Below are positions 16,233 to 37,606 of a stretch of 64,000 nt of DNA, piece after piece. Location of the stretch: positions 1 to 64,000 of the forward strand of contig SVDY01000004.1 of the NCBI GenBank assembly GCA_015057665.1, written 5' to 3'. This DNA comes from Lachnospiraceae bacterium (GTDB lineage: Bacteria > Bacillota > Clostridia > Lachnospirales > Lachnospiraceae). Every line of letters starts with the position of its first letter. Position 1 is the stretch's first letter. Position numbers and translations under genes: made by a program. A model generated the notes under the pieces. It made no database searches and was not told the DNA's origin. It saw only the letters and a list, made by a program, of their open reading frames with translations.

Positions 16233-16250
16233 TTTTCATAATACAACAAA

Positions 16251-16278
16251 AGACCAGCGCATAACAAAACGCTGGTCT
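16251..16278 (-). terminator. Terminator of SGNH-dockerin gene 1
   Basis: Stem AGACCAGCG / CGCTGGTCT. The same hairpin, nearly base for base, follows the next two paralogues (20858-20885, 25051-25078). Confidence 0.85.
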
Positions 16279-16313
16279 TCATTCTTACTTAAATTTTATT
16301 ACATTTATAGCTT

Positions 16314-19300
16314 TTATGCTTCCACAGGGAACTTTGTGATCATTTTGATACAGTACTGTAAGATAAGAACCGCATCTTTGGAGCTTACTTTGCCATCTGC
16401 ATTCAGATCACCTACTGTAAGATCCAGTTCGGATGCATCCACAAGACGGATCACGTATCTTAAGATTGCTACCGCGTCTTTGGAGTTTACTTTGCCGTCT
16501 CTGTTCACATCGCCCCAGAGTCTGATGATGTCCATTCTGTCAAGGATCTGATCCTTGATGTATTCATGTCCCTCTGCTGTTGCGAACTGGGCCTTGATAT
16601 GGTTTCCGTTCACAAAGTTGAGAAGGAAGAGGTATTCGTTCTTATATTCTGTGTGTTCCGCAAAGGTATCCACATCTGGTGCATCTACATATACTGTGTC
16701 CGGTGTGATCAGGGAGTATGCTGTAAGATGGATGTTTGCAAGTCTTGTGATGTAGTCCACATATTCTCCGATGTTAATGTCTGCAAGTTCAAGACCTTCC
16801 ATTGGGTTGTACAGGCCTACCATGATCACCTGTGCATCTTCTGCAGCAAGTTCATGGATGCGGTTCACAAGTTCAGGATATTCGAAGGCAAATTCCACGT
16901 AATTGTATCCGAGACCTTCCACTACGGATGTCATCATCGGTGCATATTTTGCAAGTGACTCATTAGTACTGAGCTCTGCTTCCACTTCCGCAAGCTTCTC
17001 TTCGATATAAACTACTGCTTCTTCCGGAAGGTATGTGCTCCAGTCATATTCAGGAAGTTCATCTGCTTTTGCAGCATCGAGTGCTTCTGTTAACATGGCA
17101 TTCACACTTAAGCCCACAGTGATGAGATCTGCATCCTTAAGCTCATCTGCATTGTCTTCCACTACTGCAAAGAGGTCTGCTGTTGTGGCTCCGTCAAGGC
17201 CGAGATTTACGTACTGGTCTGCTCTTAATTCCAGTTCTTCCGCAAGTCTTTCTGCATATGGCACTACTGCTTCTTTTGCGCCTTTGCCTGTCACACTGGA
17301 GTCACCGATCGCCACATATTTGGAATCTACTGTAGGGATATATTCTGCAGATACGGCTTCTTCGAGAAGTGCTTCGATCTTGGCAACGAGCTCTTCCACT
17401 GCTTCGCCAAGTTCCTCTAATTTCTCAAGGATCACTTTTTCTGCTTCCTCTGCGGATTCTCTGATGGCTTCTTCAATGAGTCCTCTGATCTCTGCAAGTT
17501 CTTCTTCGATCTGGGCCATTGCTTTCGCGATCTCTGCTTTTACTGCATCTTCCGCTTTGGCATATGCTTCTTCCAGCTGTTCTTTTACTTCTTCTAAGTA
17601 GTCATAAAGTCCAAGGTATTCTGCATAACGGTCAATCATGGCCCATGTTCTCTCGCCGTAGTTTTCATACCAGTTCACCATGACTTTAAGGACTGTATCT
17701 GGATTTTCCATTACAAATTCCAGGATTTCATCGCCGAATGTGTATCCGATGTAACCGATGACTGCAAGGAATGCTTCATAATGTTCCGCCATGAATACTC
17801 CCATGTCATCGCCATATTCATAGAAGAATCCAACTACTTTATCAGGATTGTTGTAGAACCAGTCATAGAGATACTGGTCTGCCACTGGAAGTGCTTCCAT
17901 AAGAGCTTCTACAAATGCGTCAAAAGCTTCCTGGGCCTTGTTCATGAGCCATTCTGTGCCCTTCTGGATCGCGATGGTAAGCTGTTTTACAGCCTGGTCT
18001 CTTAATTTGATAAGAGCATCGATGAGGATAGGCATTACATCATTGTATGTATCCGCTGCTGCGATCTCAAGAAGTTCTGCAACATCTGTTACGTTTACTA
18101 ATAATTCATCAAGAAGAGCAAGCAGTTCATCTAAGGAAGCCTGATCGAGCTCGTCCGCTTCTAAAACTAATTTCTTCGCCTGTGCGATAGTCTCTCTTGC
18201 ATTTGCAATGGATTCTTCTAATTTTTCCTTGAATTCTTCTGTGAATTCTTCGGAAAGAGGGATAGCATCCACATCGATATCTGCAAGTGCTTTGTCTGCT
18301 GTATCAAGTCCTTCTACAAGGATATCGATATAGCCGTTTTCTTCTGCATAATCATATGCATAAGCATATGCTTCGTCGTAGTATTCTGCTACGAGATCAG
18401 CAAGGATTTCTGCAGCGATTTTTAAGTTTTTCACTGTTTCGTCCTGTGCTGTGTATTTTTCTTCATAAACTGTTTTTACTGTTTCGAATAACTGGTTGTG
18501 TCCTGTCTGGCTTGGATGACCGCCGAGACCGTTACCTACTACACAACGTGCAAATAAACCAAGAAGGCCTGCAAGTGCCGGTTCACCCTGAACTGCTGCA
18601 CTTAATGTTTCAGGAAGGGCAAGTAATGTACATAACATATCAACATTAGACACTACATCTTTCAGTAAATCTACATTTGCTTTTACAGTTGGTACAGCTG
18701 CTTTTGCTGTATTCACACCTTCTACGGCAGTTTTAAGATGATTAACATTGTTAACAATATCTTCATTGGCATTATTATAAAGAGCTTCAACAGTTGCCGC
18801 ATCAAGTCCTGCTTTTGCGGCTACGAATGCGTAAATCGCAGCGTCGCCGCCTGCATAAAGAGCTTCTACCTGTTCCGCTGTAAGAAGACCGCCAGATTGC
18901 TCTGCAACTAAAGCGTAAGCTGCTTCTTCGCCATCTGTATAAAGAGCTTCTACCTGTTTGGCTGTAAGAAGGCCGTCAGACATATCTGCTACCAATGCAT
19001 AGATAGCTGCTTCGCCGCCTGTATAAAGTGCTTTTACCTGCTCCGCTGTAAGAAGACCCCCAGACTGAGATGCCACAAATGCAGCCGCACCATCTATATG
19101 ATTGATTTTTGCACCTTCGATATTGGCTGCAAAGCTTTCCATAACTCCGCCAAATAAATCTGCACTTAAATTTCCTAAACCTAATACAGAATCAATGCCT
19201 ACAGGAGCTCCTTCTTTTGCTTTCTTTACTGCATCTTCAAAAGCAAGGTAAACTGCAATAGATACTGCTTTTTCAGTGTTACGTGCAGCAAATCCTGCCT

Positions 19301-20681
19301 TTTCCTCTGGTTTTAAATCATCATAGTCACATACTTCTTCAAACGTAACCGGTTCCACAGTAATACCAGGCATAAGTTCCATACCAGCTAAAAGTCCCCA
19401 GACCATACCTGGTTTAGATGCTGTACCAACAATGTCCTGTACAAATCTATCACGAATAATAGAATCTCTATTAGAACTTCCATCTTCATTATAGAAATCG
19501 TCACCATATGTATCTACTAAACATTCTACTTCAGGAGCTTCTGCATAGTAGAACTTCGCATCCGCATAAACACCGTTCTTTGTTGCCTGCATATATGCCG
19601 GAAGGCCTGCAATGTATGCATTTAATGGTTTGAACATTACAGCCATTAAATCACCAAGAGTTGCACCTTCTGCTTCCTGATCCGTTGCCATTGTGTTCAT
19701 TAAAGCAACTAAGATAATCTCTGCGTCAGGATTAAGCTGTAAAATAGCTTCTACAGTACCTGCATAGTTCAGTACATAACTGATACCTGCATAAACAACT
19801 GTGTTTGCTAATGCATTTAATGTTTCATTTTCATCGATAGGCTGTCCAAGTTTTTCTTCCACTAAAGCATATAATTCATCAATGAGTTTCATAATCTGAG
19901 CCTGCATTTCAGGTTCACACTCAGCAATTGCCCTTTCTACATTATATACTAAAGCATCAGCTGGTTCTCCGGAAAAACCAATAGCTTCAAGGATTCTGCC
20001 AAAAGTGAATACACCAAAGTTACCATTACCGATACCAAGAGAAATAACATCTGCATTTTTTACAGTTTCCTGATATTCTTTCGCAACAATTGCTGTCTCA
20101 CCTTTCTCGATAAACTCTGACTGTGGATTTTTTTCAATTGCATCCAATGCATCCGCATTACCATTTACATATGCTTCAATATATGTGGCTGCAGTTTCAA
20201 AACGATAATCATCACAAAGTTCATTCCAAGTCCAGTAATCACCTGTGGAGAATTTGGAATTCCAATCTTCCTCATTCCATTCTTCCATCTCTGCAACTTT
20301 TACCGCTTCTTCATCTGTGTAATCAAATTCAAGAAGCCAGTGTAAATCTTCTGCTCTCATAGCAGACATTGCTAACTGTGCATGATTCACATCTTTGCCA
20401 GTTGATGTTTCTAACCATTCAGCAAACTGGTTTGCATAAGAACCATCGCCGTAGTCATAAACACCTGTATTTCCGTTATAGCCAGGAAGACCATAACCAT
20501 TTGTCATGGAATCGCCAAGAGACACATAATTGAACTCTTTTGACTCATCCATACCGTTATCTTCTACTTTTGCAGCTTCTGCTACAACAGCACAAAGATT
20601 GCCGCTTACACCAAGTACCATGGTAAATACCATCAGTAAAGCGACAAAGGAACGCCATGTTTTATTCAGCATTCTTTTCAT
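16314..20681 (-). CDS. SGNH-hydrolase-like dockerin protein 1 (variable head, helical stalk, SGNH tail)
   Basis: 1455 aa from the ATG at 20681 (GGGAGGTAATT directly upstream). Signal peptide 1-38. Head SGNH domain: GDSMTNGYG (GDS at 56-58), SLGIGNGNF (about 214-222) and His722 in GGHPSQTGH, with a long insertion between blocks that holds four copies of a GGLLTAEQVEALY unit (538-635). A helix-rich acidic stalk follows (about 745-1130). The tail SGNH domain has GDSSVTGKG, GLSVNAM and NGNH...GHEYI. The dockerin (last 65 residues) has loops DVNRDGKVNSKDAV and DLNADGKVSSKDAV. SGNH enzymes are Ser esterases of acyl or acetyl groups; substrate unknown. The Asp usual three residues before the His is not seen. 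The tail is almost identical to the 20938 gene. Location: secreted, probably cohesin-docked. Confidence 0.85.
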   Translation of the reverse strand: MKRMLNKTWRSFVALLMVFTMVLGVSGNLCAVVAEAAKVEDNGMDESKEFNYVSLGDSMTNGYGLPGYNGNTGVYDYGDGSYANQFAEWLETSTGKDVNHAQLAMSAMRAEDLHWLLEFDYTDEEAVKVAEMEEWNEEDWNSKFSTGDYWTWNELCDDYRFETAATYIEAYVNGNADALDAIEKNPQSEFIEKGETAIVAKEYQETVKNADVISLGIGNGNFGVFTFGRILEAIGFSGEPADALVYNVERAIAECEPEMQAQIMKLIDELYALVEEKLGQPIDENETLNALANTVVYAGISYVLNYAGTVEAILQLNPDAEIILVALMNTMATDQEAEGATLGDLMAVMFKPLNAYIAGLPAYMQATKNGVYADAKFYYAEAPEVECLVDTYGDDFYNEDGSSNRDSIIRDRFVQDIVGTASKPGMVWGLLAGMELMPGITVEPVTFEEVCDYDDLKPEEKAGFAARNTEKAVSIAVYLAFEDAVKKAKEGAPVGIDSVLGLGNLSADLFGGVMESFAANIEGAKINHIDGAAAFVASQSGGLLTAEQVKALYTGGEAAIYALVADMSDGLLTAKQVEALYTDGEEAAYALVAEQSGGLLTAEQVEALYAGGDAAIYAFVAAKAGLDAATVEALYNNANEDIVNNVNHLKTAVEGVNTAKAAVPTVKANVDLLKDVVSNVDMLCTLLALPETLSAAVQGEPALAGLLGLFARCVVGNGLGGHPSQTGHNQLFETVKTVYEEKYTAQDETVKNLKIAAEILADLVAEYYDEAYAYAYDYAEENGYIDILVEGLDTADKALADIDVDAIPLSEEFTEEFKEKLEESIANARETIAQAKKLVLEADELDQASLDELLALLDELLVNVTDVAELLEIAAADTYNDVMPILIDALIKLRDQAVKQLTIAIQKGTEWLMNKAQEAFDAFVEALMEALPVADQYLYDWFYNNPDKVVGFFYEYGDDMGVFMAEHYEAFLAVIGYIGYTFGDEILEFVMENPDTVLKVMVNWYENYGERTWAMIDRYAEYLGLYDYLEEVKEQLEEAYAKAEDAVKAEIAKAMAQIEEELAEIRGLIEEAIRESAEEAEKVILEKLEELGEAVEELVAKIEALLEEAVSAEYIPTVDSKYVAIGDSSVTGKGAKEAVVPYAERLAEELELRADQYVNLGLDGATTADLFAVVEDNADELKDADLITVGLSVNAMLTEALDAAKADELPEYDWSTYLPEEAVVYIEEKLAEVEAELSTNESLAKYAPMMTSVVEGLGYNYVEFAFEYPELVNRIHELAAEDAQVIMVGLYNPMEGLELADINIGEYVDYITRLANIHLTAYSLITPDTVYVDAPDVDTFAEHTEYKNEYLFLLNFVNGNHIKAQFATAEGHEYIKDQILDRMDIIRLWGDVNRDGKVNSKDAVAILRYVIRLVDASELDLTVGDLNADGKVSSKDAVLILQYCIKMITKFPVEA

Positions 20682-20701
20682 AATTACCTCCCATAAAATA
20701 T

Positions 20702-20718
20702 CCGGGATGCTGTCCCGG
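20702..20718 (-). promoter_or_regulatory. 5'-UTR hairpin just before the ribosome site
   Basis: CCGGGA-TGCTG-TCCCGG lies about 10 bases upstream of the GGAGG. An equivalent is at 24894-24910 (gene 2) and a related one at 35593-35609 (gene 5). It may protect the mRNA or tune translation; this is inference. Confidence 0.5.
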
Positions 20719-20744
20719 AATGCAAAATATATACTATCCATAAT

Positions 20745-20773
20745 ATCTTAAATAAATTACCAATCTGTGTCAA
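20745..20773 (-). promoter_or_regulatory. Sigma-A promoter of SGNH-dockerin gene 1
   Basis: TTGACA, 17-bp spacer, TAAGAT on the minus strand, about 65 bases before the start. Its sequence matches the promoter of the next paralogue. Confidence 0.65.
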
Positions 20774-20857
20774 CCGTAATCTTCCGTTTAGCTTGTTTTT
20801 TTTAACACATTTTTATTATGTGTTAACTTTTTAATTAATCCTGCCTATAATAAACAA

Positions 20858-20885
20858 AGACCAGCGCATAACAAAACGCTGGTCT
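20858..20885 (-). terminator. Terminator of SGNH-dockerin gene 2
   Basis: AGACCAGCG / CGCTGGTCT stem followed on the minus strand by TTGTTTATT. Confidence 0.85.
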
Positions 20886-20937
20886 TCTTTCTTACTTTAA
20901 TTTTATTGCATTTTTAAGTTTTATTACATTATAGAAG

Positions 20938-23900
20938 TTATGCTTCCACAGGAAACTTTGTGATCATTTTAATGCAGTACTGTAAGATAAGAACTGCATC
21001 TTTGGAGCTTACTTTGCCATCTGCATTCAGATCACCTACTGTAAGATCCAGTTCGGATGCATCCACAAGACGGATCACGTATCTTAAGATTGCTACCGCG
21101 TCTTTGGAGTTTACTTTGCCGTCTCTGTTCACATCGCCCCAGAGTCTGATGATGTCCATTCTGTCAAGGATCTGATCCTTGATGTATTCATGTCCCTCTG
21201 CTGTTGCGAACTGGGCCTTGATATGGTTTCCGTTCACAAAGTTGAGAAGGAAGAGGTATTCGTTCTTATATTCTGTGTGTTCCGCAAAGGTATCCACATC
21301 TGGTGCATCTACATATACTGTGTCCGGTGTGATCAGGGAGTATGCTGTAAGATGGATGTTTGCAAGTCTTGTGATGTAGTCCACATATTCTCCGATGTTA
21401 ATGTCTGCAAGTTCAAGACCTTCCATTGGGTTGTACAGGCCTACCATGATCACCTGTGCATCTTCTGCAGCAAGTTCATGGATGCGGTTCACAAGTTCAG
21501 GATATTCGAAGGCAAATTCCACGTAATTGTATCCGAGACCTTCCACTACGGATGTCATCATCGGTGCATATTTTGCAAGTGACTCATTAGTACTGAGCTC
21601 TGCTTCCACTTCCGCAAGCTTCTCTTCGATATAAACTACTGCTTCTTCCGGAAGGTATGTGCTCCAGTCATATTCAGGAAGTTCATCTGCTTTTGCAGCA
21701 TCGAGTGCTTCTGTTAACATGGCATTCACACTTAAGCCCACAGTGATGAGATCTGCATCCTTAAGCTCATCTGCATTGTCTTCCACTACTGCAAAGAGGT
21801 CTGCTGTTGTGGCTCCGTCAAGGCCGAGATTTACGTACTGGTCTGCTCTTAATTCCAGTTCTTCCGCAAGTCTTTCTGCATATGGCACTACTGCTTCTTT
21901 TGCGCCTTTGCCTGTCACACTGGAGTCACCGATCGCCACGTATTTGGAGTCTACAGTAGGAATGTATTCTGCAGATACGGCTTCTTCCAGAAGTGCTTCG
22001 ATCTTGGCAATGAGCTCTTCGATGGCTTCGCCAAGTTCTTCTAATTTCTCAAGGATCACTTTCTCTGCTTCTTCAGCGGATTCTCTGATGGCTTCTTCAA
22101 TGAGTCCTCTGATCTGTGCAAGTTCTTCTTCGATCTGTGCCATTGCTTTGGCGATCTCTGCTTTTACTTCTGCTTCTGCTTTTGCATATGCTTCTTCAAG
22201 CTGTTCTTTTACTTCTTCCAGGTAATCGTAAAGTCCAAGGTATTCTGCATAGCGGTCGATCATTGCCCATGTTCTCTCGCCATATGTTTCATACCAGTTC
22301 ACCATGGCCTTTAATACTGTATCCGGATTTTCCATTACGAATTCAAGGATTTCGTCACCGAAAGTATATCCGATGTAACCGATGACCGCAAGGAATGCCT
22401 GATAATGTTCCTCCATGAATGCACCCATGTCGTCGCCATATTCATAGAAGAATCCGACTACCTTGTCAGGATTGTTATAGAACCAGTCATAGAGGTACTG
22501 GTCTGCCACTGGAAGTGCTTCCATAAGGGCTTTTACAAATGCATCAAATGCTTCCTGAGCCTTGTTCATGAGCCATTCTGTGCCCTTCTGGATCGCGATT
22601 GTAAGCTGTTTTACAGCCTGGTCTCTTAATTTGATAAGAGCATCGATGAGGATAGGCATTACATCGTTGTATGTATCAACTGCCGCGATCTCAAGGAGTT
22701 CTGCAACGTCTGTTACGTTTACTAACAATGTATCAAGAAGTGCTAACAGCTCATCTAAGGAAGCCTGATCGAGCTGGTCTGCTTCTAATACTAATTTCTT
22801 CGCCTGTGCGATAGTCTCTCTTGCATTTGCAATGGATTCTTCTAATTTTTCCTTGAATTCTTCTGTGAATTCTTCGGAAAGAGGGATAGCATCCACATCG
22901 ATATCTGCAAGTGCTTTATCTGCTGTATCAAGTCCTTCTACAAGGATATCGATATAGCCGTTTTCTTCTGCATAATCATATGCATAGGCATATGCTTCGT
23001 CGTAGTATTCTGCTACGAGATCAGCAAGGATTTCTGCAGCTTTGATTAAATTTTCAATTGTTACGTCTGTTGCTGTAATATCATTTTCAACAGCATTAAT
23101 CATAGCATCACTTACCTGTTTGTGACCGGCAATACTTGGATGGCAAAGAACACCATCACCAGCTACATAGATAGCGAAAATATTACAAAGACCCTGAAGT
23201 TCAGGTGTGCTCACTAATACATCGTAAATATGATCTGGTGTCACTCCTGCGGACATATCAATACCACTCATGGCTTTCATGACAGTATCCTGAAGACCGC
23301 CTTCTCCCTCTGTTGCAAGAATGATAAATGTTCCAACAGGGAATGTCTGTAAATCAACTGTGTTAAGGAAAGCTTTTTCGATACCCAGGTAACCTACACA
23401 GCTGATGTAGCAAGATGTAATCATATTTGTTACAGCAGCTTGAGGATTAGTATAATTTTCCGCAAGATTCCAGTCGATTTTTGTATCCATATATTTGTTC
23501 TGGAAATAGGCATTAAGTGCTGGCCATTCATTTCTGGAAGATAATTCAGCATATGTATCAACATCTTCTACATCAATAGAAGTTGGATATGCACCTAAAG
23601 CATCACCCATCATACTTAAAATATTACCAACAACGTCTCTTACCATACGACGGCGTGTCATAACAGAAGGAATCTCGTGTTCTTCTGCCATCTGTTCTGC
23701 AAGAAGTTCTACATCTCCTACTTCTGCATAATAAATCTTTGTTGTAAATTCTTCTTCATTTACATAAGCAAGGCCTTCATATAAAGCAGGTAATGCTGCC
23801 ATATATACGTTAACTGCTTCGTATGCATAATCAAGTAATTTTCCAAAAGGAATTGGTTCCATACCTTCGAAAAGTTCAATGTTCATTCCGTTAAGCCAGT

Positions 23901-24873
23901 TGGATAATCCAACAAGAACAATTTGTGCATCCGGATTCACTTTAAGAATATGGTCAATAATTCCTTTGTAAGATACAAGATAGCTTACTGTTGTATAGGC
24001 AGTTGTTTCTGCCATGCCGCCAATAAAATCTGCAACAGTAAGATCTTTTCCTGCGATATCTGCTGGTGCACTATCAGGATGTTTGCCAAGAACATAGTCC
24101 ATTCCGACTCCTCTTGCAGACATTTCTTTCATAAATGCTTCTGAAACTTTTGTCTGAACTTTTGTCGCAATTTCCTTAAGTTCCGGATCAATACCTTCTA
24201 ATAAACCAGGAAGATCAGTGACATCATACATGCTTCCAAACATACTTCCAAAACTAGGAGCCATAGCACCTACATAATAACCGATACGGCGTGTTAAGAA
24301 AGTGGAGAAATTGTTAGATCCTACACCAACACTGATTACATCTGCTTCTGCTACAGATGTCTGGAATGTTTCAGCCAAATCTTTAATCATGGCTTCTCTG
24401 CCACCATTATAAACAGCAGAATTATTCAATGCATAGTATTCCCTAAATCTACTTGGAACATTTCCTACTGTGTAATCATCCGGAACAATTTCATCTTCTG
24501 TTCCGTAAGTTAAAAGGTATAATGTATCATCTGCACGAGTTGCACTAGTAGCAAGCTGAGTTAAATCCACATTACCTTCACCATAAATAGTTTCTAAATA
24601 GCTCTTAAAATTCACAGGATAAGAATTTTCAACTTCCTGCATGTAGCCGTTTACATTTTTGTGTTCGCCATTAACAACCGGTTCATAACCTTCCAGGCCA
24701 TAACCGTTAGTCATAGAATCGCCGAGAGACACATAATTAATTGTCTGCTTATCTTCAGCCTTTGCTGCTTCTACGGCTGCAACACAAAGATTGCCGCTTA
24801 CACCGAGTACCATGGAAAATACCAACAGTAAAGCGACAAAGGAACGCCATGTTTTGTTCAGCATTCTTTTCAT
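20938..24873 (-). CDS. SGNH-hydrolase-like dockerin protein 2
   Basis: 1311 aa from the ATG at 24873 (GGAGGTAATT upstream). Signal peptide 1-37. Head SGNH: GDSMTNGYG (GDS at 51-53), SVGVGSNNF, and His in LCHPSIAGH. The head differs strongly from gene 1 except at signal peptide and motifs, and lacks the LLTAEQV repeats. From about residue 600 on, the stalk, the tail SGNH domain (GDSSVTGKG, GLSVNAM, NGNH) and the dockerin match gene 1 with about 14 substitutions in the stalk and none seen from the tail SGNH domain to the end. The N-terminal 234 residues recur at 8355-9062. It has its own promoter and terminator. Likely a secreted acyl-esterase-like protein; substrate unknown. Confidence 0.85.
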   Translation of the reverse strand: MKRMLNKTWRSFVALLLVFSMVLGVSGNLCVAAVEAAKAEDKQTINYVSLGDSMTNGYGLEGYEPVVNGEHKNVNGYMQEVENSYPVNFKSYLETIYGEGNVDLTQLATSATRADDTLYLLTYGTEDEIVPDDYTVGNVPSRFREYYALNNSAVYNGGREAMIKDLAETFQTSVAEADVISVGVGSNNFSTFLTRRIGYYVGAMAPSFGSMFGSMYDVTDLPGLLEGIDPELKEIATKVQTKVSEAFMKEMSARGVGMDYVLGKHPDSAPADIAGKDLTVADFIGGMAETTAYTTVSYLVSYKGIIDHILKVNPDAQIVLVGLSNWLNGMNIELFEGMEPIPFGKLLDYAYEAVNVYMAALPALYEGLAYVNEEEFTTKIYYAEVGDVELLAEQMAEEHEIPSVMTRRRMVRDVVGNILSMMGDALGAYPTSIDVEDVDTYAELSSRNEWPALNAYFQNKYMDTKIDWNLAENYTNPQAAVTNMITSCYISCVGYLGIEKAFLNTVDLQTFPVGTFIILATEGEGGLQDTVMKAMSGIDMSAGVTPDHIYDVLVSTPELQGLCNIFAIYVAGDGVLCHPSIAGHKQVSDAMINAVENDITATDVTIENLIKAAEILADLVAEYYDEAYAYAYDYAEENGYIDILVEGLDTADKALADIDVDAIPLSEEFTEEFKEKLEESIANARETIAQAKKLVLEADQLDQASLDELLALLDTLLVNVTDVAELLEIAAVDTYNDVMPILIDALIKLRDQAVKQLTIAIQKGTEWLMNKAQEAFDAFVKALMEALPVADQYLYDWFYNNPDKVVGFFYEYGDDMGAFMEEHYQAFLAVIGYIGYTFGDEILEFVMENPDTVLKAMVNWYETYGERTWAMIDRYAEYLGLYDYLEEVKEQLEEAYAKAEAEVKAEIAKAMAQIEEELAQIRGLIEEAIRESAEEAEKVILEKLEELGEAIEELIAKIEALLEEAVSAEYIPTVDSKYVAIGDSSVTGKGAKEAVVPYAERLAEELELRADQYVNLGLDGATTADLFAVVEDNADELKDADLITVGLSVNAMLTEALDAAKADELPEYDWSTYLPEEAVVYIEEKLAEVEAELSTNESLAKYAPMMTSVVEGLGYNYVEFAFEYPELVNRIHELAAEDAQVIMVGLYNPMEGLELADINIGEYVDYITRLANIHLTAYSLITPDTVYVDAPDVDTFAEHTEYKNEYLFLLNFVNGNHIKAQFATAEGHEYIKDQILDRMDIIRLWGDVNRDGKVNSKDAVAILRYVIRLVDASELDLTVGDLNADGKVSSKDAVLILQYCIKMITKFPVEA

Positions 24874-24937
24874 AATTACCTCCATAAAAATATCCGGGGT
24901 GCTGTCCCGGAATGTAAAAAAATACACTGTCCATAAT

Positions 24938-24966
24938 ATTCTAAATAAATTACCAATCTGTGTCAA
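24938..24966 (-). promoter_or_regulatory. Sigma-A promoter of SGNH-dockerin gene 2
   Basis: TTGACA, 17-bp spacer, TAGAAT on the minus strand, near-identical context to 20745-20773. The 5'-UTR hairpin at 24894-24910 follows it. Confidence 0.7.
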
Positions 24967-25050
24967 CCGTGTTCTTCCATTAAACTTAATTTTTTCAACA
25001 TATTTTTATTTTGTGTTAATTTTTTAATTAATCCTGCCTATAACTAAGGA

Positions 25051-25078
25051 AGACCAGCGCATAATAAAACGCTGGTCT
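25051..25078 (-). terminator. Terminator of SGNH-dockerin gene 3
   Basis: AGACCAGCG / CGCTGGTCT stem, third copy of the family terminator. Confidence 0.85.
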
Positions 25079-25114
25079 TCTTTCTTCCTTAAATTTGATT
25101 TTATTTATAATCTT

Positions 25115-28100
25115 TTATGCTTCCACAGGGAACTTTGTGATCATTTTAATGCAGTACTGTAAAATAAGAACTGCATCTTTGGAGCTTACTTTGCCATCTG
25201 CATTGAGATCACCTACTGTAAGATCCAGTTCGGATGCATCCACAAGACGGATCACATATCTTAAGATCGCTACAGCATCTTTGGAGTTTACTTTACCGTC
25301 TCTGTTCACATCGCCCCAGAGTCTGATAATGTCCATTCTGTCAAGGATCTGGTCCTTGATGTATTCATGTCCCTCTGCTGTTGCGAACTGGGCCTTGATA
25401 TGGTTTCCGTTCACAAAGTTGAGAAGGAAGAGGTATTCGTTCTTATATTCTGTGTGTTCCGCAAAGGTATCCACATCCGGTGCATCTACATATACTGTGT
25501 CCGGTGTGATCAGGGAGTATGCTGTAAGGTGGATGTTGGCAAATCTTGTGATGTAGTCCACGTATTCTCCAATGTTGATGTCTGCAAATGTAAGACCTTC
25601 CATTGGATTGTACATGCCTACCAAGATCACCTTAGCATCTTCTGCTGCAAGTGCATGGATACGGTTCACAAGTTCTGGATATTCGAAAGCGAATTCCACG
25701 TAATTGTAACCAAGGCCTTCCACTACAGATGTCATCATCGGTGCGTATTTTGCCATTGTCTCATTGGCAGCAAGTTCTGCTCCCACTTCCGCAAGCTTTT
25801 CTTCGATATAGTGAACTGCTTCTTCCGGAAGGTATCTGCTCCAGTCATATTCAGGAAGTTCATCTGCTTTTGCGGCATTGAGTGCTTCCGTTAACATGGC
25901 ATTTACACTTAAGCCCACTGTGATAAGGTCTGCATCCTTAAGCTCATCTGCATTGTCTTCCACTACTTTGAAGAGGTCTGCTGTTGTGGCTCCGTCAAGG
26001 CCGAGATTTATGTACTGCTCTGCTGTAAGTTCCAGTTCTTCCGCAAGTCTTTCCCCATATGGCACTACTGTTTCTTTTGCGCCTTTTCCTGTCACGCTGG
26101 AATCACCAATCGCCACATATTTGGAGTCTACAGTAGGAATGTATTCTGCAGATACAGCTTCTTCCAGAAGTGCTTCGATCTTGGCAATGAGCTCTTCGAT
26201 GGCTTCGCCAAGTTCTTCTAATTTCTCAAGGATCACTTTCTCTGCTTCTTCCGCGGATTCCTTGATTGCTTCTTCCATAAGTGCTCTGATCTGTGCAAGT
26301 TCTTCTTCGATCTGGGCAATTGCTTTTGCGATTTCTGCTTTTACTGCATCTTCTGCTTTCGCATAAGCTTCTTCAAGCTGTTCTTTTACTTCTTCTAAGT
26401 AATCATAAAGTCCAAGGTATTCTGCATAGCGGTCGATCATATCCCATGTTCTCTCGCCGTAAGTTTCATACCAGTTCACCATAGCCTTTAATACTGTTTC
26501 ATGGTTTTCCATTACAAATTCCAGAACTTCGTCGCCGAATGTGTAACCGATATATGCAAGAACTTTAACGATATTCTCACCGTGTTCTGTCAGGAATTCA
26601 CCCATGATATCGCCGTATTCACAGAAGAATCCGCATACTTTATCAGGATTGCTGTAAAGCCAGTCATAGAGATACTGATCTGCAGCAGGAAGTGCTTCTG
26701 CAAGTACTTTCAAGAACTCGTCATAAGCTTCCTGAACTTTATTCATGAGCCATTCTGTGCCCTTCTGAATCGCGATGTTGAGCTGTTTTTCAGCCTGATC
26801 TCTCAATTTCATAAGAGCATCGATCACGATAGGCATTACATCATTATATGTATCAACTGCAGCAATCTCAAGGAGTTCTGCAACGTCTGTTACATTTACT
26901 AATAATTCATCCAGAAAAACGAGTAACTCATCTAAGGAAGCCTGGTCGAGCTCGTCCGCTTCTAAAACTAATTTCTTCGCCTGGGCGATGGTTTCTCTTG
27001 CATTTGCAATAGATTCTTCTAATTTTCCTTTGAATTCTTCTGTGAATTCTTCGGAAAGAGGGATGGAATCCACATCAATGTCCGCAAGTGCTTTGTCAGC
27101 TGTATCAAGACCTTCTGCGAGTATATCGATATAACCGTTTTCTTCTGCGTAGTCATATGCATAAGCGTATGCTTCGTCATAATATTCTGTAAGAAGTCCG
27201 CCAAGTTTTACAAGTTCTTCAGCGATTTCTTCATTGGCTACTTTCTTACCGCGGATTTCTTCTTCGTAAGCGGTAATAATAGCATCTTTTAACTGCTCAT
27301 GACCGGTCTTGTTTGGATGTGCATAGAAACTGTTACCAAAGCCTGTTCTTACACCCAGACAGAGAACCGATGCAAAAGCAGAATCTTCAAGTAATGTTTC
27401 ATCAAAATGATAATCCGGTACAACGATATTTTCAGGATTAACACTATTCGTACCCAGATAAACTTCCATTGCAGAAGTAAGAACTGTTTCTACACTGGTA
27501 AGGGAGTCAACAAGGATCATCTCCATTGCCTTCTTTTCCGCTTTGCTGTATGCGTCGGAGAACAGTGCTGTGATATCGATTAATTCCTGCTCAGCACCTT
27601 TTTTCATAATTGTTGCAAACACATCGTAAGCTGCATATAACGCCTTTTCATATGCTGCACAGAGATACTTACCGGCTGCAACGGCTGTCTGAACCTGTAC
27701 TGCCATTTCGTTATATAATTCCGGATTTGTTTCTTTGTCAGCTCCATGTACTTCTTCAAATTTTACAAGATACTGATCCCAGCCGTTGTTTTCATTTGTC
27801 TTAAAGAAAGCAAGTAATTCATTAAATTCGTTAAAATATTCCTGAGCTGCCTCACCCATGCTTTCAAGAATTTTTGCCGGGCTTTTTCCTGCTAAAACAG
27901 CATCAATAACAGAAGAATCAATATTGATAGCCGCTTCATTCTCATCTGATGCATCCGGCTTTGCTGCTTCAGGCGCTTCATATAAACCTAACTGGGCTAA
28001 ATCGGTCAATACCTGATTCACATAAGGACTTGCTTTTTTTGCAAAGATCAACTGAATAATCGGTCTGATATTAATATTGTTATCATATACGTCGAAACAG

Positions 28101-29179
28101 TCTCTCATATTGTCATCAAGATGATATGGGTTGCTATCGTAAGCACGAATATCATCTAAGAATGTATCGATATGTCCGTCTTCCCCCGGATAGCCATAAT
28201 AATATCTGTCAGCATATGGAGAAAGACTTGCTGTATAAAGATTTGCCATATTAACCACAGTACCGAAAATGTCGCCCAGTGGGAATTCTCCATCTACAAC
28301 ACCTTCCATGGTAGCGTCCACACCATAGATCATGTTTTGAAGACCTAATACAACGATATTTACATCCGGATTATATTCATAAATCTTCTCTACAACTTTA
28401 TCAAAGCTGATCATAAATCCAGCCAGTGCATATGCTGCAGAATCGATAACGAAGTCAAATTCTGTAAGAATGGCTGCTTCATCTGTACCAATCTTTTCAG
28501 CTACCAGTTCAGTAACATCTTCTTTTACTTCATAATATTTGGCGAGTTCTTCTTCCGTGAATACATTTGTCAAATCGCTTCCATACTTGGTACCGCCAGT
28601 CACAATCTGGTTCATCATATATACACCGAAGTTATTAACACCAATGTCGAGAGAAATAAGATCTGCTTCTGTCACTGCTTTTTTGTAAGCTGCTCTAAGC
28701 TCAGGAAGGCCGCCTTCCTCTGCGTCTTTGAACCAGCCATTGCCATCCTGATTATAAAAACGCCATTCCGTATACTTGTCTCCCATATACTCGTCATCTA
28801 AGAGCATTCTTACCTCTTCTGCACGCATGGAGCTGATTGCAAGCTGCTCTAAATTAACTGACTTTCCAGTTTCTTCAAGAGCTGTTTTCACAAGGTAAGG
28901 ATATGCAGTTTCCGGATGACGTTTGTATCCGTATACGTTTAATGAATCCTTCATAGTAAGTGCTAATAACGGATTCTCATATACATATTCCGGAAGATAG
29001 TAACGCATTCCATATCCATTTGTCTGAGAAGCACCGATGGAAACATAATGAATAGTATCTTCATCTCCAAGGTCGTTCACAGATGCTGCAATTACATTGC
29101 TGCTTACTCCTGTAAGCATACTAAATACTAGGAGCAATGCAACGATGGAACGCAATGTTTTGTGTAACATCTTTTCCAT
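25115..29179 (-). CDS. SGNH-hydrolase-like dockerin protein 3
   Basis: 1354 aa, ATG at 29179 with GGAGGTAT upstream. Signal peptide 1-33. The head SGNH block I reads IGASQTNGYG, so the Asp of GDS is Ala while the Ser stays; block III is LDIGVNNFG; the His block is YAHPNKTGH. The middle holds a low-similarity helical insertion. The stalk is recognisably the same as in genes 1 and 2 but more diverged. The tail SGNH domain (GDSSVTGKG, GLSVNAM, NGNH) and the dockerin (VNSKDAV, VSSKDAV) are nearly the same. It is the older member of the tandem series. Secreted; predicted to dock to a cohesin. Confidence 0.84.
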   Translation of the reverse strand: MEKMLHKTLRSIVALLLVFSMLTGVSSNVIAASVNDLGDEDTIHYVSIGASQTNGYGMRYYLPEYVYENPLLALTMKDSLNVYGYKRHPETAYPYLVKTALEETGKSVNLEQLAISSMRAEEVRMLLDDEYMGDKYTEWRFYNQDGNGWFKDAEEGGLPELRAAYKKAVTEADLISLDIGVNNFGVYMMNQIVTGGTKYGSDLTNVFTEEELAKYYEVKEDVTELVAEKIGTDEAAILTEFDFVIDSAAYALAGFMISFDKVVEKIYEYNPDVNIVVLGLQNMIYGVDATMEGVVDGEFPLGDIFGTVVNMANLYTASLSPYADRYYYGYPGEDGHIDTFLDDIRAYDSNPYHLDDNMRDCFDVYDNNINIRPIIQLIFAKKASPYVNQVLTDLAQLGLYEAPEAAKPDASDENEAAINIDSSVIDAVLAGKSPAKILESMGEAAQEYFNEFNELLAFFKTNENNGWDQYLVKFEEVHGADKETNPELYNEMAVQVQTAVAAGKYLCAAYEKALYAAYDVFATIMKKGAEQELIDITALFSDAYSKAEKKAMEMILVDSLTSVETVLTSAMEVYLGTNSVNPENIVVPDYHFDETLLEDSAFASVLCLGVRTGFGNSFYAHPNKTGHEQLKDAIITAYEEEIRGKKVANEEIAEELVKLGGLLTEYYDEAYAYAYDYAEENGYIDILAEGLDTADKALADIDVDSIPLSEEFTEEFKGKLEESIANARETIAQAKKLVLEADELDQASLDELLVFLDELLVNVTDVAELLEIAAVDTYNDVMPIVIDALMKLRDQAEKQLNIAIQKGTEWLMNKVQEAYDEFLKVLAEALPAADQYLYDWLYSNPDKVCGFFCEYGDIMGEFLTEHGENIVKVLAYIGYTFGDEVLEFVMENHETVLKAMVNWYETYGERTWDMIDRYAEYLGLYDYLEEVKEQLEEAYAKAEDAVKAEIAKAIAQIEEELAQIRALMEEAIKESAEEAEKVILEKLEELGEAIEELIAKIEALLEEAVSAEYIPTVDSKYVAIGDSSVTGKGAKETVVPYGERLAEELELTAEQYINLGLDGATTADLFKVVEDNADELKDADLITVGLSVNAMLTEALNAAKADELPEYDWSRYLPEEAVHYIEEKLAEVGAELAANETMAKYAPMMTSVVEGLGYNYVEFAFEYPELVNRIHALAAEDAKVILVGMYNPMEGLTFADINIGEYVDYITRFANIHLTAYSLITPDTVYVDAPDVDTFAEHTEYKNEYLFLLNFVNGNHIKAQFATAEGHEYIKDQILDRMDIIRLWGDVNRDGKVNSKDAVAILRYVIRLVDASELDLTVGDLNADGKVSSKDAVLILQYCIKMITKFPVEA

Positions 29180-29217
29180 AAAATATACCTCCTATAAAAA
29201 TTAACAATATTTATGTT

Positions 29218-29305: not shown

Positions 29306-32300
29306 TTAACCCGCCACAGGGAACTTTGTGATCAGTTTAATACAATACTGTAAGATAAGTACCGCATCTTTGGAATTCACTTTATCATCTCCGTTCAGAT
29401 CGGCCACCTGAAGATCCAGTTCAGATGCATCTGTAAGATGAACCAGGTATTTCAAAAGTTCTACTGCATCTTTGGAAGTAACTTTACCATCTCTGTTCAC
29501 ATCCCCCCACGTACCGATAATGTCCACAGCATCCAGAATCTGATCCTTAATATACGTATGCCCCTCTTCTGTTGCAAACTGGGCATTAAAATGACTTCCA
29601 TTCACCAGATTCAGCAGAAACAACAAGTTATTGTGATAGGTAATGTGTTTCGCAAAAGTATCTACCTCCGGTGCACTTATAAATAATGTATTGGGTGATA
29701 TTAATGAATAGGCATTTAAATGGATGTTACCAAGTGCTGTGAGATACTCTACATATTCTCCGATGTTAATTCCCTCAAAGGAAAGCCCCTTCATTGGATT
29801 ATGCATACCAATCAGAATAACCTGGGCATCGTCATCCGCATATCCATGAATTTCTTTTACAAGTTCCGGATATTCAAATGCAAATTCCACATAACGATAT
29901 CCAAGTCCTTCCACCAAAGCCACTATCATAGGAACATAGGCTTCCAGCTCCTTGTTGCTGCGCAACTCAAGTTCCAGATTTGATAATTTTTCTTCTACGA
30001 AAAGGACCGCTTCCTCCGGAAGATATTTATTCCAATCATATTCCTGGAGAACGTCTTCTTTCGCAGCTTTGAGTGATTCCACTAACATTGCATTGATGCT
30101 CACTCCAATAGTTATAAGATCAGCATTTTGAATATTATCCGTGTGTTCCTCCACAATTTTAAACAAATCTGCCGTTGTCACACCTTCCTGACCAAGGTCT
30201 ATGAACTGTTCATCTTTAAGTTTTAATTCCTGTGCAAGCTGCTGGGAAAATGTTGTTACTTCTTCTTTCCCCGCAGTTTCTGTAACACTTGCATCCCCAA
30301 TTGAAACATAATGAGAAACTTCTACTTTCACTTCATCTGGTGTATACAGCAGATAGTTTTCCAACATTGTAACCATATTTTTCATAGTCTGTGTCCGGGC
30401 TTCATAGTCACTGGCATAGGATTTCTTCACAGCTTGGAACAAAGCCTCATGCCCCTGTTCCGATGGGACAAGTCCGTATTCTTCGGTAAACATCCATTCT
30501 ATATCAGCAGACTCTGCATAATAGAAAACAGCATTTTGATATAAAGGGTTATTGATCATCTGCATGATGGCTGGCAGAGCCGCCACATATACATTCAATG
30601 GTTCAATAATACTATTTAATACAGAAACAACGGATATATCTGTTTCTGCAAGGTCCGGATAAATATTCTGAGTTTTGGCTGCATCCATATCCATAAGACT
30701 TATCAGAATCAGCTCTGCATCCGGATTCATATGTAAAATTGCCTCTATTGTCTTCGTATAATCAACCAGATAACGGACACTTACATATATTACAGCATCT
30801 GCAAATACTTCTAATTCTGAAATAACAGTCGGGTCTCCATCGTCAATATTCTCACTCAATGATATCTCCAGAATATTGTATAATACAGACAATAACTTTT
30901 GAATCACAGATTGAATCTCCGTTCTGCATTCCGCTATCATGCTTTTCATATCGCTTTCAACCTTATTTATGGTCTGTTCCCTGTTTTGTAACGCATCTGT
31001 CAGATAGGTACTAAAATAGGTGCCAAAGGTATCATTCCCGATTCCCAGAGAAATGGTGTCCGCATTTTTCACCGCGTTCTGATATTCTTCGATCTTTGTC
31101 CCATCCATGTGATTATTATCTGAGTTTGTTTCTATATCTACACTCTCTTCAGCTAACATGCGGTACAGTTCCCCTGCCGTCATCCCGATTCTGGCAAGAG
31201 GCGTATGTACGACAGAAAAACCAGTCTGTTCCTGTAACCATTGTGCAAATCGGTTACTATAAGAAGCATGTCCATAACAATAGCCATCCTCGCTGTCAAC
31301 ATATCCTGGAAGACCTGCACCATCAGACATAGAATCGCCCAAAGAAACATATTGCATTATCTGACCAGACATATTATTGTCTGGAAAAATCGGCTTCTCC
31401 TCTGCTTCCTTATCGTCAGCGCCTGTTGTACATATAATCTTTTTCAAAATCTGCTCCGCAATATATGCATGGCCATTAGCCGTGGCATGGTCATTATGTA
31501 CTCCATTTTCTCCCTGGATATGATTCATATACTCCGCGAATGAAAAGGAAGCCCCTTTTTCAATCACATTGACATAGTTAAATGTTTCAACATCCATTGC
31601 ATCCACAAAAATGGCATTCTCTCTCCTATCGGCACATTCCCTAAGTACTGTATTCACGTAATCAGTAATTCCCTGCATAAGACTGTCTATATCGATTCGA
31701 ACTCCATTATTTTCAATATATACATCCTGCATCGTATTATACAGACCAACAATCACAAGCGATGCATCCGGTGCATATTCACGGATCCGCTCAATAGTTT
31801 TGTCAAAGTACTTTGTAATGTTGTAATAACCATACAACATACATTGAAGCCTTAAAATTGCATAAGTCCTTTCTTCTTCACTGATTCCAGCCAGTTTAAG
31901 CAATTTATCCAAAGATTTCAATTTGTTCTGAAGCTTGTTCAGCTCTGTCTGATTCAGGTAACGTTCCCATTCCACCTGCGGCACTATTCCGGTTTCCTCA
32001 TAATGATTCATAATAAAGGATGCGTAGGTACCTAAACTATTGCCTCCGGCACTAATGGATATGAGATCTGCTCTGGACAGACACTCTGCAAATAATTTTC
32101 TTGTCTGTTCCAACCCTCCTGTGTAACGGTTAAAACTGCTTTCCACGGAATTATATGTATATGCATCTGCCTCAAATGTATCATCCAGAACATACAAAAT
32201 ATCTTCCACTCTTAATCCGCCACAGGCCAATTGTTCGTATTGAGTTTCCGGATCCAGACCAAGACTCTTTGCAACACGATATGGATATGCCTCCGGTACT

Positions 32301-32518
32301 TTTACCCGGTAACCATAATTCCCGTAGCCTTCCAAGCCTAATCCTGTTACCGTAGAATCACCTAAAGAAACATAAAAAGAGTTCTCTGTCACTGTGTACA
32401 ATAATTTCTCATTCTTCTCATCAGTTGCAGGAACAGCGGCTACTGCCGGCAAAGTTATATTGACCAGCATACAGGCAGCAACTATCAACGCTAATAATGA
32501 ATGTATCTTCTTATTCAT
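29306..32518 (-). CDS. SGNH-dockerin protein 4 with three SGNH-like domains
   Basis: 1070 aa, ATG at 32518, AAGGAG 8 bases upstream. Signal peptide 1-28. Three SGNH-type modules follow. Domain A: GDSTVTGLG (GDS 53-55), SAGGNSLG, VHNDHATANGH. Domain B (about 390-700): GDSMSDGAG, GIGNDTFGT, but LVPSEQGH where the His should be, so the catalytic His is Val. Domain C (about 750-990): GDASVTE, so the catalytic Ser is Ala, with SINAM and NGSH. The dockerin has loops DVNRDGKVTSKDAV and DLNGDDKVNSKDAV. The helical stalk of genes 1-3 is absent. Only domain A keeps Ser, Asn and His. Secreted and probably cohesin-docked. Confidence 0.84.
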   Translation of the reverse strand: MNKKIHSLLALIVAACMLVNITLPAVAAVPATDEKNEKLLYTVTENSFYVSLGDSTVTGLGLEGYGNYGYRVKVPEAYPYRVAKSLGLDPETQYEQLACGGLRVEDILYVLDDTFEADAYTYNSVESSFNRYTGGLEQTRKLFAECLSRADLISISAGGNSLGTYASFIMNHYEETGIVPQVEWERYLNQTELNKLQNKLKSLDKLLKLAGISEEERTYAILRLQCMLYGYYNITKYFDKTIERIREYAPDASLVIVGLYNTMQDVYIENNGVRIDIDSLMQGITDYVNTVLRECADRRENAIFVDAMDVETFNYVNVIEKGASFSFAEYMNHIQGENGVHNDHATANGHAYIAEQILKKIICTTGADDKEAEEKPIFPDNNMSGQIMQYVSLGDSMSDGAGLPGYVDSEDGYCYGHASYSNRFAQWLQEQTGFSVVHTPLARIGMTAGELYRMLAEESVDIETNSDNNHMDGTKIEEYQNAVKNADTISLGIGNDTFGTYFSTYLTDALQNREQTINKVESDMKSMIAECRTEIQSVIQKLLSVLYNILEISLSENIDDGDPTVISELEVFADAVIYVSVRYLVDYTKTIEAILHMNPDAELILISLMDMDAAKTQNIYPDLAETDISVVSVLNSIIEPLNVYVAALPAIMQMINNPLYQNAVFYYAESADIEWMFTEEYGLVPSEQGHEALFQAVKKSYASDYEARTQTMKNMVTMLENYLLYTPDEVKVEVSHYVSIGDASVTETAGKEEVTTFSQQLAQELKLKDEQFIDLGQEGVTTADLFKIVEEHTDNIQNADLITIGVSINAMLVESLKAAKEDVLQEYDWNKYLPEEAVLFVEEKLSNLELELRSNKELEAYVPMIVALVEGLGYRYVEFAFEYPELVKEIHGYADDDAQVILIGMHNPMKGLSFEGINIGEYVEYLTALGNIHLNAYSLISPNTLFISAPEVDTFAKHITYHNNLLFLLNLVNGSHFNAQFATEEGHTYIKDQILDAVDIIGTWGDVNRDGKVTSKDAVELLKYLVHLTDASELDLQVADLNGDDKVNSKDAVLILQYCIKLITKFPVAG

Positions 32519-32773: not shown

Positions 32774-33535
32774 TTATGCTCTTTTTTTGATAACTACAGC
32801 TGTACCAGCTAATGCAACTAACATGATAACTGCATATGTCATGATTGCTGTGTTGTCGCCTGTGTTAGGAGCTTCTGTCTTAGGAGCTTCTGTTGTAGGA
32901 GCTTCTGTTGTAGGTGCATCTGTTGCAGGAGCTTCTGTTGTAGGTGCATCTGTTGCAGGAGCTTCTGTTGTAGGAGCATCTGTTGCAGGAGCTTCTGTTG
33001 TAGGAGCTTCTGTTGCAGGAGCTTCTGTTGTAGGAGCTTCTGTTGTAGGAGCTTCTGTTGTAGCTTCAGCTACTGTAATTGTAGCAGCTGTAACTACTGC
33101 AGTATGATCTTCAGCTTCGTTGTAGATTTCAGAGAAGCTAGCGTTAACTTTCTGTGCGCCTTCTGCAGTTACTTTGTAAGTAGCAATAAGTAATACGTCC
33201 TGGCCAGCTTTAACTGTTCCATCAACTGCATTTGCATAAATTGCCATAGCTGTGTCAGGGTTAGTGAAAGCCTGACCTGGGTTAGCTTTAACGAAAGAAG
33301 CATTAGCGATATCCATAGAAACTAATTCTAAACCTTCTGTTGCTTCAAGAGTAATTGTGTAAGACATAAGTTTGTCAATACCGGAAGCTTTCACTTCAAC
33401 TGTAACTTCTTCACCAACTTCAGCTGTTGCTTTGGATGGAGCTACTGTAACGTTTGCTGTTGCTGCAAATGCTGTAGATAACATGCATGTTGCAACAAGT
33501 GTAACTGCTGCGATAAAACCTAATAATTTTTTCAT
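32774..33535 (-). CDS. Sortase-anchored single-cohesin surface protein (mini-scaffoldin)
   Basis: 253 aa, ATG at 33535 with AAGGAG 8 bases before. Signal peptide 1-24. Residues about 25-155 look like a type I cohesin: opening NVTVAPSKATAEVGEEVTVE, then a VKASGIDKLMSYTITL strand pair and the closing SEIYNEAEDHTAVVTAATIT, in size and order like the beta-sandwich of scaffoldins. A (TEAPTT/ATDAP)n linker encoded by 15-bp repeats follows, then APNTGD, one membrane helix and KKRA, a sortase-type wall-sorting signal. Cohesins bind dockerins in a Ca-dependent way; seven dockerin proteins lie in this window, and the one at 33559 is 23 bases upstream in the same operon. The protein thus looks like the wall anchor for those clients. 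The cohesin assignment is by pattern and context, not by search. Confidence 0.78.
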   Translation of the reverse strand: MKKLLGFIAAVTLVATCMLSTAFAATANVTVAPSKATAEVGEEVTVEVKASGIDKLMSYTITLEATEGLELVSMDIANASFVKANPGQAFTNPDTAMAIYANAVDGTVKAGQDVLLIATYKVTAEGAQKVNASFSEIYNEAEDHTAVVTAATITVAEATTEAPTTEAPTTEAPATEAPTTEAPATDAPTTEAPATDAPTTEAPATDAPTTEAPTTEAPKTEAPNTGDNTAIMTYAVIMLVALAGTAVVIKKRA

Positions 33536-35571: not shown

Positions 35572-35726
35572 ACTCAACCTCCCTAGATTATGTTGGGGTG
35601 CCATCCCAATTTTTTTGCGACATATGGGCAAAATACTGAGAAACACTCTCTCCCCTCGCCCACAAGGCAGAATGTATCTGCAAGATGACATACTTATGGC
35701 ATAGCAAATCCATTCTTATCTTTTAA

Positions 35727-35872: not shown

Positions 35873-37606
35873 TTATTTATCGAGTTTAGTATAATCGAAG
35901 TTTACGTACTCGTCTTCCAATGTACGATAGTCGTTCTTACCCATACCTGTAAGAGGAATCTCATCAATGGAAATAACTGCTACCGGCTTGCCACGTTCTT
36001 CCACATGTTTGTCGCAGTATTCGAAGATTTCCTTACATAATTCATCTCGGTCTACCCCATCTGCAGCTTCGATGATGGTAAGAGGATACTGTCCCTGGCT
36101 GTGGCCGCGGTCGTTGACACCGATGGTTACACAGTTACGTACATAAGCATGCTCGGATACCATGCTTTCTAAGTTTACAGGGAATACTTTGTGTCCGTCA
36201 AAACGTGTGATCATACGTTTTACACGGCCTTTGATGTATACGAAACCATCTTCATCCATGTAACCGATATCACCGGAATGAATCCATACTTGTCCGTCTT
36301 CATGTTCTCTCATGACGTTTGCTGTTTCTTCCGGTCTGTTGAAGTAACCTTTCATTACAGACGGACCTGTCACACATACTTCACCGTGCTGGTTATAGCC
36401 AAGTTCTTCCCCTGTCTCAGGATCAAAGATACCGATGGTTGTTGTAAGAGAAGGAATACCTACACTGAAACGTTTGTATCTGTCATTTACACAGAAGGAT
36501 GCTGCCGCAGATAACTCGGACATGCCATATCCCTGTGCAAGAGGATATTTGATATTATGGTCTTTCATGAACTGATTTAACTTGTTCTCAAGACCTTCGT
36601 TCATGGTATCGCCGCCAGAGCCAAGTGTGATAATGAAGGATAAATCCATGTTTTTCACTTCTTTACTATTCATTAAAAGCTCATAGAAGGCAGGTGTACT
36701 GATCATATGTTCCGGACGGAACTGTTTGATTAATTTACCGAACTGTGTTGGCTCGAATTTTGGAATTGGTACCAGTTCACACCCAAGGCATAATGGCATA
36801 TGCATGCCGCATACCATTCCGTATGTGGAGAATACAGGGATAATTCCAAGGAAACGGTCACCTGGTGTATATACGAGACCACAGTATTTGAAATTGATAA
36901 CTACAGAGTTCATGCTGTCGTTTGTAAGCATAACGCCTTTTGGGAAACCTGTTGTTCCGCCTGTATAAGCAATTGCTACAAGGGCATCTCCAACATATGG
37001 AACTTCTTTGGCTTTTGTATGTTCACCGCCTTTAATAAAGCTCTTCCATCTGATTACTTTTCCGCCGTAATCCACGTCTGCTTTCATCTTTGCTTTCATT
37101 GCAACTTTTGCTACAAATAATAGAGAGTCTGTTGCAGACTGAACAATCACGTGATCCTGTTTGATTGTGTTCATGATCTTACGTACCTTTGGATATGCAA
37201 GGTCAATTGTCACAAGAATTCTGGAGCCGGATTCTTTTACCATGCGGCTGATACTCTTTGTATCCATACGAGGGTCAATCATATTCGCTGCTGCACCAAT
37301 TTTATTCAGGGCATATACAGCAACAATACACTCAGGTACTGCAACGGATAAAAAAGATACGATATCCCCTTTTTTTACACCGAGAGCGACAAATGCATTA
37401 GCTGCTGCATCAATGCGTTTGAACAGTTCTTCCCATGTAATGTTCTTTCCATAATAATGGATCGCTGTATGTTTTAAATGTCCACGATTCTCATACTTTA
37501 AATAAGAATAAATTGTTCTCTTTGGAATCTCCACATGGGCGGATTCCTTTGGAAGGTATTTCATCCACGCTTTTTCCTGTGAAGGTGTTAATTTCTGATT
37601 GGACAT
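35873..37606 (-). CDS. AMP-forming acyl-CoA synthetase / ligase (ANL superfamily)
   Basis: 577 aa. The phosphate-binding motif YTGGTTGFPKG (about 215-225), the QGYGMSE motif and the domain hinge region SGDIGYMDEDGFVYIKGR are present, as is the C-terminal catalytic Lys in TGMGKNDYR. The family activates a carboxylic acid with ATP to an acyl-AMP and passes it to CoA or a carrier protein. The substrate cannot be read from the sequence; long-chain fatty acid or an aromatic acid are possible. Cytoplasmic. It has its own promoter (37704-37731) and terminator. No nearby carrier protein or fatty-acid gene is seen. Confidence 0.88.
   Translation of the reverse strand: MSNQKLTPSQEKAWMKYLPKESAHVEIPKRTIYSYLKYENRGHLKHTAIHYYGKNITWEELFKRIDAAANAFVALGVKKGDIVSFLSVAVPECIVAVYALNKIGAAANMIDPRMDTKSISRMVKESGSRILVTIDLAYPKVRKIMNTIKQDHVIVQSATDSLLFVAKVAMKAKMKADVDYGGKVIRWKSFIKGGEHTKAKEVPYVGDALVAIAYTGGTTGFPKGVMLTNDSMNSVVINFKYCGLVYTPGDRFLGIIPVFSTYGMVCGMHMPLCLGCELVPIPKFEPTQFGKLIKQFRPEHMISTPAFYELLMNSKEVKNMDLSFIITLGSGGDTMNEGLENKLNQFMKDHNIKYPLAQGYGMSELSAAASFCVNDRYKRFSVGIPSLTTTIGIFDPETGEELGYNQHGEVCVTGPSVMKGYFNRPEETANVMREHEDGQVWIHSGDIGYMDEDGFVYIKGRVKRMITRFDGHKVFPVNLESMVSEHAYVRNCVTIGVNDRGHSQGQYPLTIIEAADGVDRDELCKEIFEYCDKHVEERGKPVAVISIDEIPLTGMGKNDYRTLEDEYVNFDYTKLDK

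Follow-up and report, generated by a model that had tools for sequence, protein, structure and literature searches.

Separate histories of heads and tails, with probable gene conversion of the tails, in a tandem array of SGNH-dockerin genes from a Lachnospiraceae bacterium

The 64-kb window analysed here (the whole stretch of DNA under study, from a draft genome of a Lachnospiraceae bacterium) carries on its minus strand, from 16314 to 35691, five related genes, A to E (Table 1), which we think probably encode a set of wall-displayed SGNH esterases whose heads are conserved and whose tails have been kept alike by conversion. The array would encode secreted SGNH-fold esterases shown on the cell wall. 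In the unit that A, B and C represent, a catalytic head, which includes a large helical insert, would be followed by the helical stalk, by an SGNH domain that is catalytically dead and serves as a spacer, and by a dockerin. This dockerin would plug into a cohesin, for which the neighbouring NPXTG-anchored one is the best candidate. The heads would be old paralogous types, presumably with different substrates. Conversion from neighbour to neighbour would keep stalk, tail and dockerin alike and so preserve one docking specificity, possibly because selection favours a uniform dockerin. Earlier recombination at the edges of the heads would have placed an A-type head in a B-like frame of leader, stalk and tail, and an acyl-CoA ligase would act on the acids that the heads release. 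The analysis covers one strain, known from its draft genome, and a few relatives.

Table 1. Features of the array and its surroundings (window coordinates unless a locus is named)
Feature	Position	Strand	Description
Orphan ORF	8355..9062	-	235 codons; same ribosome site as B, then signal peptide and start of B head
Stem-loop after A	16249..16317	-	repeats after B (20856-20924) and C (25049-25117)
Gene A	16314..20741	-	1475 codons; leader, A-type SGNH head, stalk, SGNH tail, dockerin
Identical tract in A	16372..17315	-	944 nt, equals B 20996-21939; tail SGNH and most of dockerin
Second tract	17356..17450 (A coordinates)	-	95 nt, B equals C against A; significant by permutation
A head cassette, non-alignable	18453..20487	-	from just past GDS motif to just past HPxxxGH
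5' flank of A	20488..20917	-	upstream DNA, ribosome site, signal peptide, GDS motif; 5' edge of non-alignable head
Gene B	20938..24966	-	1342 codons; layout as A, SGNH head of another type (~561 aa)
Identical tract in B	20996..21939	-	944 nt, equals A 16372-17315
Gene C	25115..29179	-	1354 codons; layout as A, C-type SGNH head
Gene D	29306..32518	-	1070 codons; SGNH D1, A-type D2, SGNH tail, dockerin
Cohesin-like gene	32774..33535	-	one cohesin-like domain, linker rich in Thr, sorting signal of NPXTG type; between D and E
Gene E	33559..35691	-	710 codons; headless, with leader, helical stalk, SGNH tail and dockerin
Acyl-CoA ligase (AMP-binding)	35873..37606	-	same-strand upstream neighbour of array
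Ligase genes in relatives	L061 6494-8230; L062 4793-6517; L063 7089-8825; L075 11465-13198

A preliminary description of this DNA had presented A, B and C as genes with a common leader and tail and divergent heads, and this picture holds: all three ORFs are open over the spans given there, their leaders and tails align and their heads do not. The likely start of B is 24873, and each of the three has a helical stalk of 371 residues. The A head, about 700 aa long, includes three 28-aa repeats, and three 84-nt tandem repeats at 18820-19082 are situated within its helical insert; in the C head GAS replaces GDS. Gene D has three SGNH-like domains, of which D2 is without His-Pro, and no stalk, and its tail SGNH is about 60% identical to those of A, B and C. 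The stem-loops 3' of A, B and C are followed by a T run and are thus terminator-like, so that these genes are likely transcribed separately. The dockerins of A to E all score above the cut-off for PF00404 (type I dockerin), which finds 12 such domains in the genome. They fall into two sequence classes, one with SKDAV (A to D) and one with SRDAV (E and the majority of the other dockerins in the genome), which suggests two docking specificities. Elsewhere in the window, IS4-family and IS200-like transposase genes (14280-16107) lie between an LRR gene and A, a protein with Transglutaminase-core, LRR_5 and dockerin domains (9171-14054) resembles the kinds of protein found in the group 4b array of R. 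flavefaciens, and the protein at 466-3819, in which a CxxC repeat unit of about 45 residues recurs many times, ends in a dockerin.

The tails of A and B carry the evidence for recent conversion. The stretches 16385-17317 and 21009-21941 had been reported as free of mismatches, which is nearly so: one mismatch is present in 933 positions, at 17316, while the stalk adjoining the 944-nt identical tract shows 88 mismatches in 1117 bases. When the polymorphic sites of the stalk and tail alignment were permuted, an A=B tract as long was found in 0 of 10,000 permutations (p<1e-4), and the shorter tract in which B equals C lies just upstream of it. Synonymous divergence, which had been proposed for comparison between head and tail, is uneven along the genes: dS/dN between A and B is 0.59/0.11 in the leader, 1.53/0.82 in the head, where silent sites are saturated, 0.34/0.02 in the stalk and 0.018/0 in the tail. 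The dS of A-C and of B-C likewise declines, from 0.63 in the stalk to about 0.26 in the tail, and the dockerin proteins of A, B and C are identical with silent differences remaining (dN 0, dS 0.09-0.26). The edge of the A-B tract coincides with the boundary between stalk and tail SGNH domain, at the first residues of the latter. A sharp tract of zero divergence, set within a duplicate of greater age and ending where one domain meets the next, gives good support to the earlier suggestion of gene conversion of the tails, and we regard a recent conversion as well supported.

An error of assembly, in which the assembler duplicated or merged the identical 944 nt or joined heads to the wrong tails, has to be considered in a draft genome of 81 contigs, but we hold it to be very unlikely. 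Both copies of the tract lie within one 155-kb contig and have different flanks, and an error between A and B would explain neither the adjoining B=C tract nor the lower divergence of the A-C and B-C tails; moreover, the conflict between heads and tails described below is met again in L060, an independent genome.

Relatives were sought by one scan of 85k genomes and by searches within the family, which yielded L060 (two tandem genes, g1 and g2, with a third gene in the same genome, G436), L061, L062, L063, G382, G438 and G590. With the tail and head queries used, we obtained 0 matches in two other genomes of the genus and no match in nearly all of the ~400 genomes of the family; a plasmid search with the tail gave no match, and none was found on viral contigs or, with the tail profile, among PDB sequences. 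In the head tree, C groups with L060 g2 and L089 (support 100/99), and A with D2 (100/98) on the side of L060 g1, L061, L062 and G590. Most of the head sequences share 20-40% of their residues, and B, D1 and D2 form long branches. The deeper branches of this tree are uncertain, but the clades relied on here are not. The tails, on the other hand, cluster by genome, with {A,B,C,D} and {L060 g1, g2} supported at 100/99. The C head is 42-43% identical to heads of other genera (43% to L060 g2), against 26% to A and 24% to B, and the nearest to the A head are D2 (41%) and other A-type heads. AU tests reject a single clade of A, B and C heads (p 3e-35), of L060 g1 and g2 heads (p 1e-57) and of A and B heads (p 0.004), as well as a tail clade of C with L060 g2 (p 1.4e-5). 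Heads and tails thus have different histories across genera.

Tandem genes with a common leader, stalk and tail might also arise without any recombination, if whole genes were duplicated and selection then drove their heads apart quickly. That account, which we consider extremely improbable, would have to reconcile a C head closer to those of other genera than to A or B, the rejection of the A+B+C head clade, and an A-B divergence of zero in the tail and not in the stalk; a version with fast head divergence on a single branch was rejected on the head and tail trees and the AU tests. The arrangement of the modules differs among relatives as well. Stalks of 371-512 aa are found in A, B, C, L060 g2 and G382 (371 in A, 372 in L060 g2), whereas D and the A-type genes L060 g1, L061, L062 and G590 have linkers of 21-46 aa in their place (21 in D, 32-46 in the others). 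Since L089 (4977-7382 in G438) carries a C-type head on CxxC-type repeats and a dockerin, with neither stalk nor SGNH tail, heads do change partners.

Gene A itself has a mosaic structure. Its likeness to B ends right after the GDS motif and returns right after HPxxxGH, and outside the head B is its closest relative (83.5% identity over 431 bp of upstream DNA and leader, in addition to the low dS of stalk and tail). The 371-residue stalk behind its B-like leader is found neither in A-type genes elsewhere nor in D. An A-type head combined with this stalk and leader makes A an old mosaic, with a recent conversion of its tail. In the order proposed, a B-like gene would have been duplicated, an A-type head would have replaced the head of the duplicate, and much later the last 944 nt would have been converted.

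The preliminary description had offered exchange of heads, producing variants on the same dockerin, as an alternative. Exchange finds a place as an old event only, from the conflict between head and tail trees across genera and from the stalk of A that other A-type genes lack; for ongoing shuffling of variants we find no support, the heads being conserved types common to other genera. A variation system proper, in which heads are actively exchanged among copies to change a surface protein, would take the orphan ORF as its silent donor. This ORF is 98.6% identical to the first 235 codons of B, the copy starting at the ribosome site, and its 8 silent and 1 replacement differences are clustered, with 0 in codons 24-178 and a cluster beyond them (p 0.0005), so that it may be a fragment still exchanging with B. 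Conserved flanks on either side of a divergent head and transposase genes adjoining A would also fit such a system, but we judge it improbable, because these head types are old and occur in other genera too, no recent head exchange is seen among A to D, and in the draft genome searched the orphan was the only further head copy outside the array, and a partial one, where several silent donor cassettes would be expected; one partial head copy is not a cassette bank. A modular wall display, in which interchangeable esterase heads could be moved within a conserved frame of leader and stalk, conversion would hold the dockerin uniform and the orphan would be a cassette exchanging with B, seems to us unlikely as well, if somewhat less so.

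The heads are themselves SGNH domains. The AlphaFold model of a head (pLDDT 83) has as its top PDB match the GDSL esterase 7e16 (Z 16.6, 194 of 207 residues, 2.4 A), and that of the tail SGNH also matches GDSL esterases (Z 17.2); in the tail model, confidence is low over the stalk. In the model of the A head, a helical insert of some 330 residues separates the last core strand from the His motif. Weak Foldseek matches that linked the head with helical proteins and transporters were set aside as matches between helices, and Pfam matches of the stalk (apolipoprotein, BAR and baculovirus families) as a product of long-helix composition. The nucleophile Ser of block I is present in 12 of 12 heads and the His-Pro of block V in 10 of 12, the exceptions being D1 and D2, whereas the tails have this His-Pro, with the catalytic His, in 0 of 12. 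The Asp expected three residues before the His is replaced in most heads by Asn or another residue, or stands at another spacing, which makes the activity of the heads uncertain. By these motifs and models we take the heads to be probable hydrolases of SGNH fold, and the tails would be catalytically dead spacers of the same fold. Compared with known GDSL/SGNH esterases (7e16, 8ik1 EstL5, the rumen lipase 6nkd, and the families CE2 and CE3), the heads have the same core fold and Ser and His motifs, but in full they measure 490-700 aa, have the long helical insert before the His motif and are fused to a second, dead SGNH domain.

That 12 of 12 tails have lost the His, that most heads are missing the Asp near theirs and that D2 has lost His-Pro could instead be read as marks of adhesins or structural rods, in which both SGNH folds serve as binding modules and not as enzymes. 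We give this reading a minor chance, given that Ser and His-Pro are so largely kept in the heads and His-Pro in none of the tails, and given the linked acyl-CoA ligase. The gene for this ligase lies directly upstream of the first SGNH gene, about 40-180 bp away and in the same orientation, in all five loci in which the flank is on the contig (the window, G382, L061, L062 and L063), and the ligases of the relatives are 54-67% identical to that of the window.

For display on the wall, as in the esterase reading that we favour, the cohesin-like gene of the window is the proposed anchor. Its product scores 20.8 bits for cohesin, below the Pfam cut-off of 24.1, and the NPXTG model is above cut-off. 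A cohesin gene follows an SGNH-dockerin gene in the window, G382 and G436, and the cohesins of the latter two pass the Pfam cut-off; the draft genome has two cohesin Pfam matches, both just below it. All cohesin proteins seen in the draft genome have a single cohesin, although divergent cohesins may escape detection. At least one further cohesin-like protein is encoded in the genome, which leaves the dockerin partner of A to E unproven. In G000, two adjacent cohesin-like genes lie on C10 (18935-20854), one of them with a dockerin 75% identical to that of A and the second ending in a hydrophobic segment and lysines, in the manner of a membrane anchor. L063 encodes at 8864-11074 a related stalk and SGNH protein with an SLH domain where others have the dockerin, which fits a predicted anchoring at the surface. 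Taken together, ligase, cohesin gene and SLH domain point to a surface-displayed acyl-ester hydrolase, the acid presumably being used inside the cell.

In outline the pattern is of a known kind. The tandem, head-to-tail dockerin genes ORF01263-ORF01267 of R. flavefaciens FD-1 (group 4b dockerins) are described as conserved in the C-terminal part beyond the dockerin and variable in the N-terminal part (PLoS One 2010, PMC2930009), as in the array reported here. The section on those genes concerns transglutaminase-like or LRR proteins, unlike the SGNH heads and tails with stalk found here, and sets out the pattern with no test for conversion (PMC2930009). The same source presents ScaE of R. flavefaciens as a sortase-anchored LPXTG protein with a single cohesin, partner of dockerin proteins (PMC2930009). 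Our cohesin-like protein likewise has one cohesin and a wall-sorting signal, but its cohesin match is weak, its signal is of NPXTG type and its binding is putative. Recombination between surface-protein paralogues of one genome is also described for babA and babB of Helicobacter pylori (PMC3444412). The array resembles that case as a probable instance of recombination among the paralogous surface proteins of a single genome. In Helicobacter pylori the recombination reportedly varies an adhesin, whereas the recent event here would homogenise the docking tail. We found nothing relevant on gene conversion or concerted evolution with dockerins in the open-access literature searched and, as far as that literature shows, the conversion tract, the conflict of heads and tails across genera and the design of an SGNH head on a dead SGNH domain are new.

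Bacteria that use dockerins must hold one docking specificity while the cargo varies. A conversion confined to the docking half of the gene, with its edge at a domain boundary and with heads that have separate histories across genera, would be a way of doing so. The proteins concerned form an apparently undescribed group in gut bacteria, with an SGNH head, a stalk, a dead SGNH domain and a dockerin or SLH domain, accompanied by an acyl-CoA ligase and a sortase-type cohesin, and the substrate of their SGNH heads is open to test.
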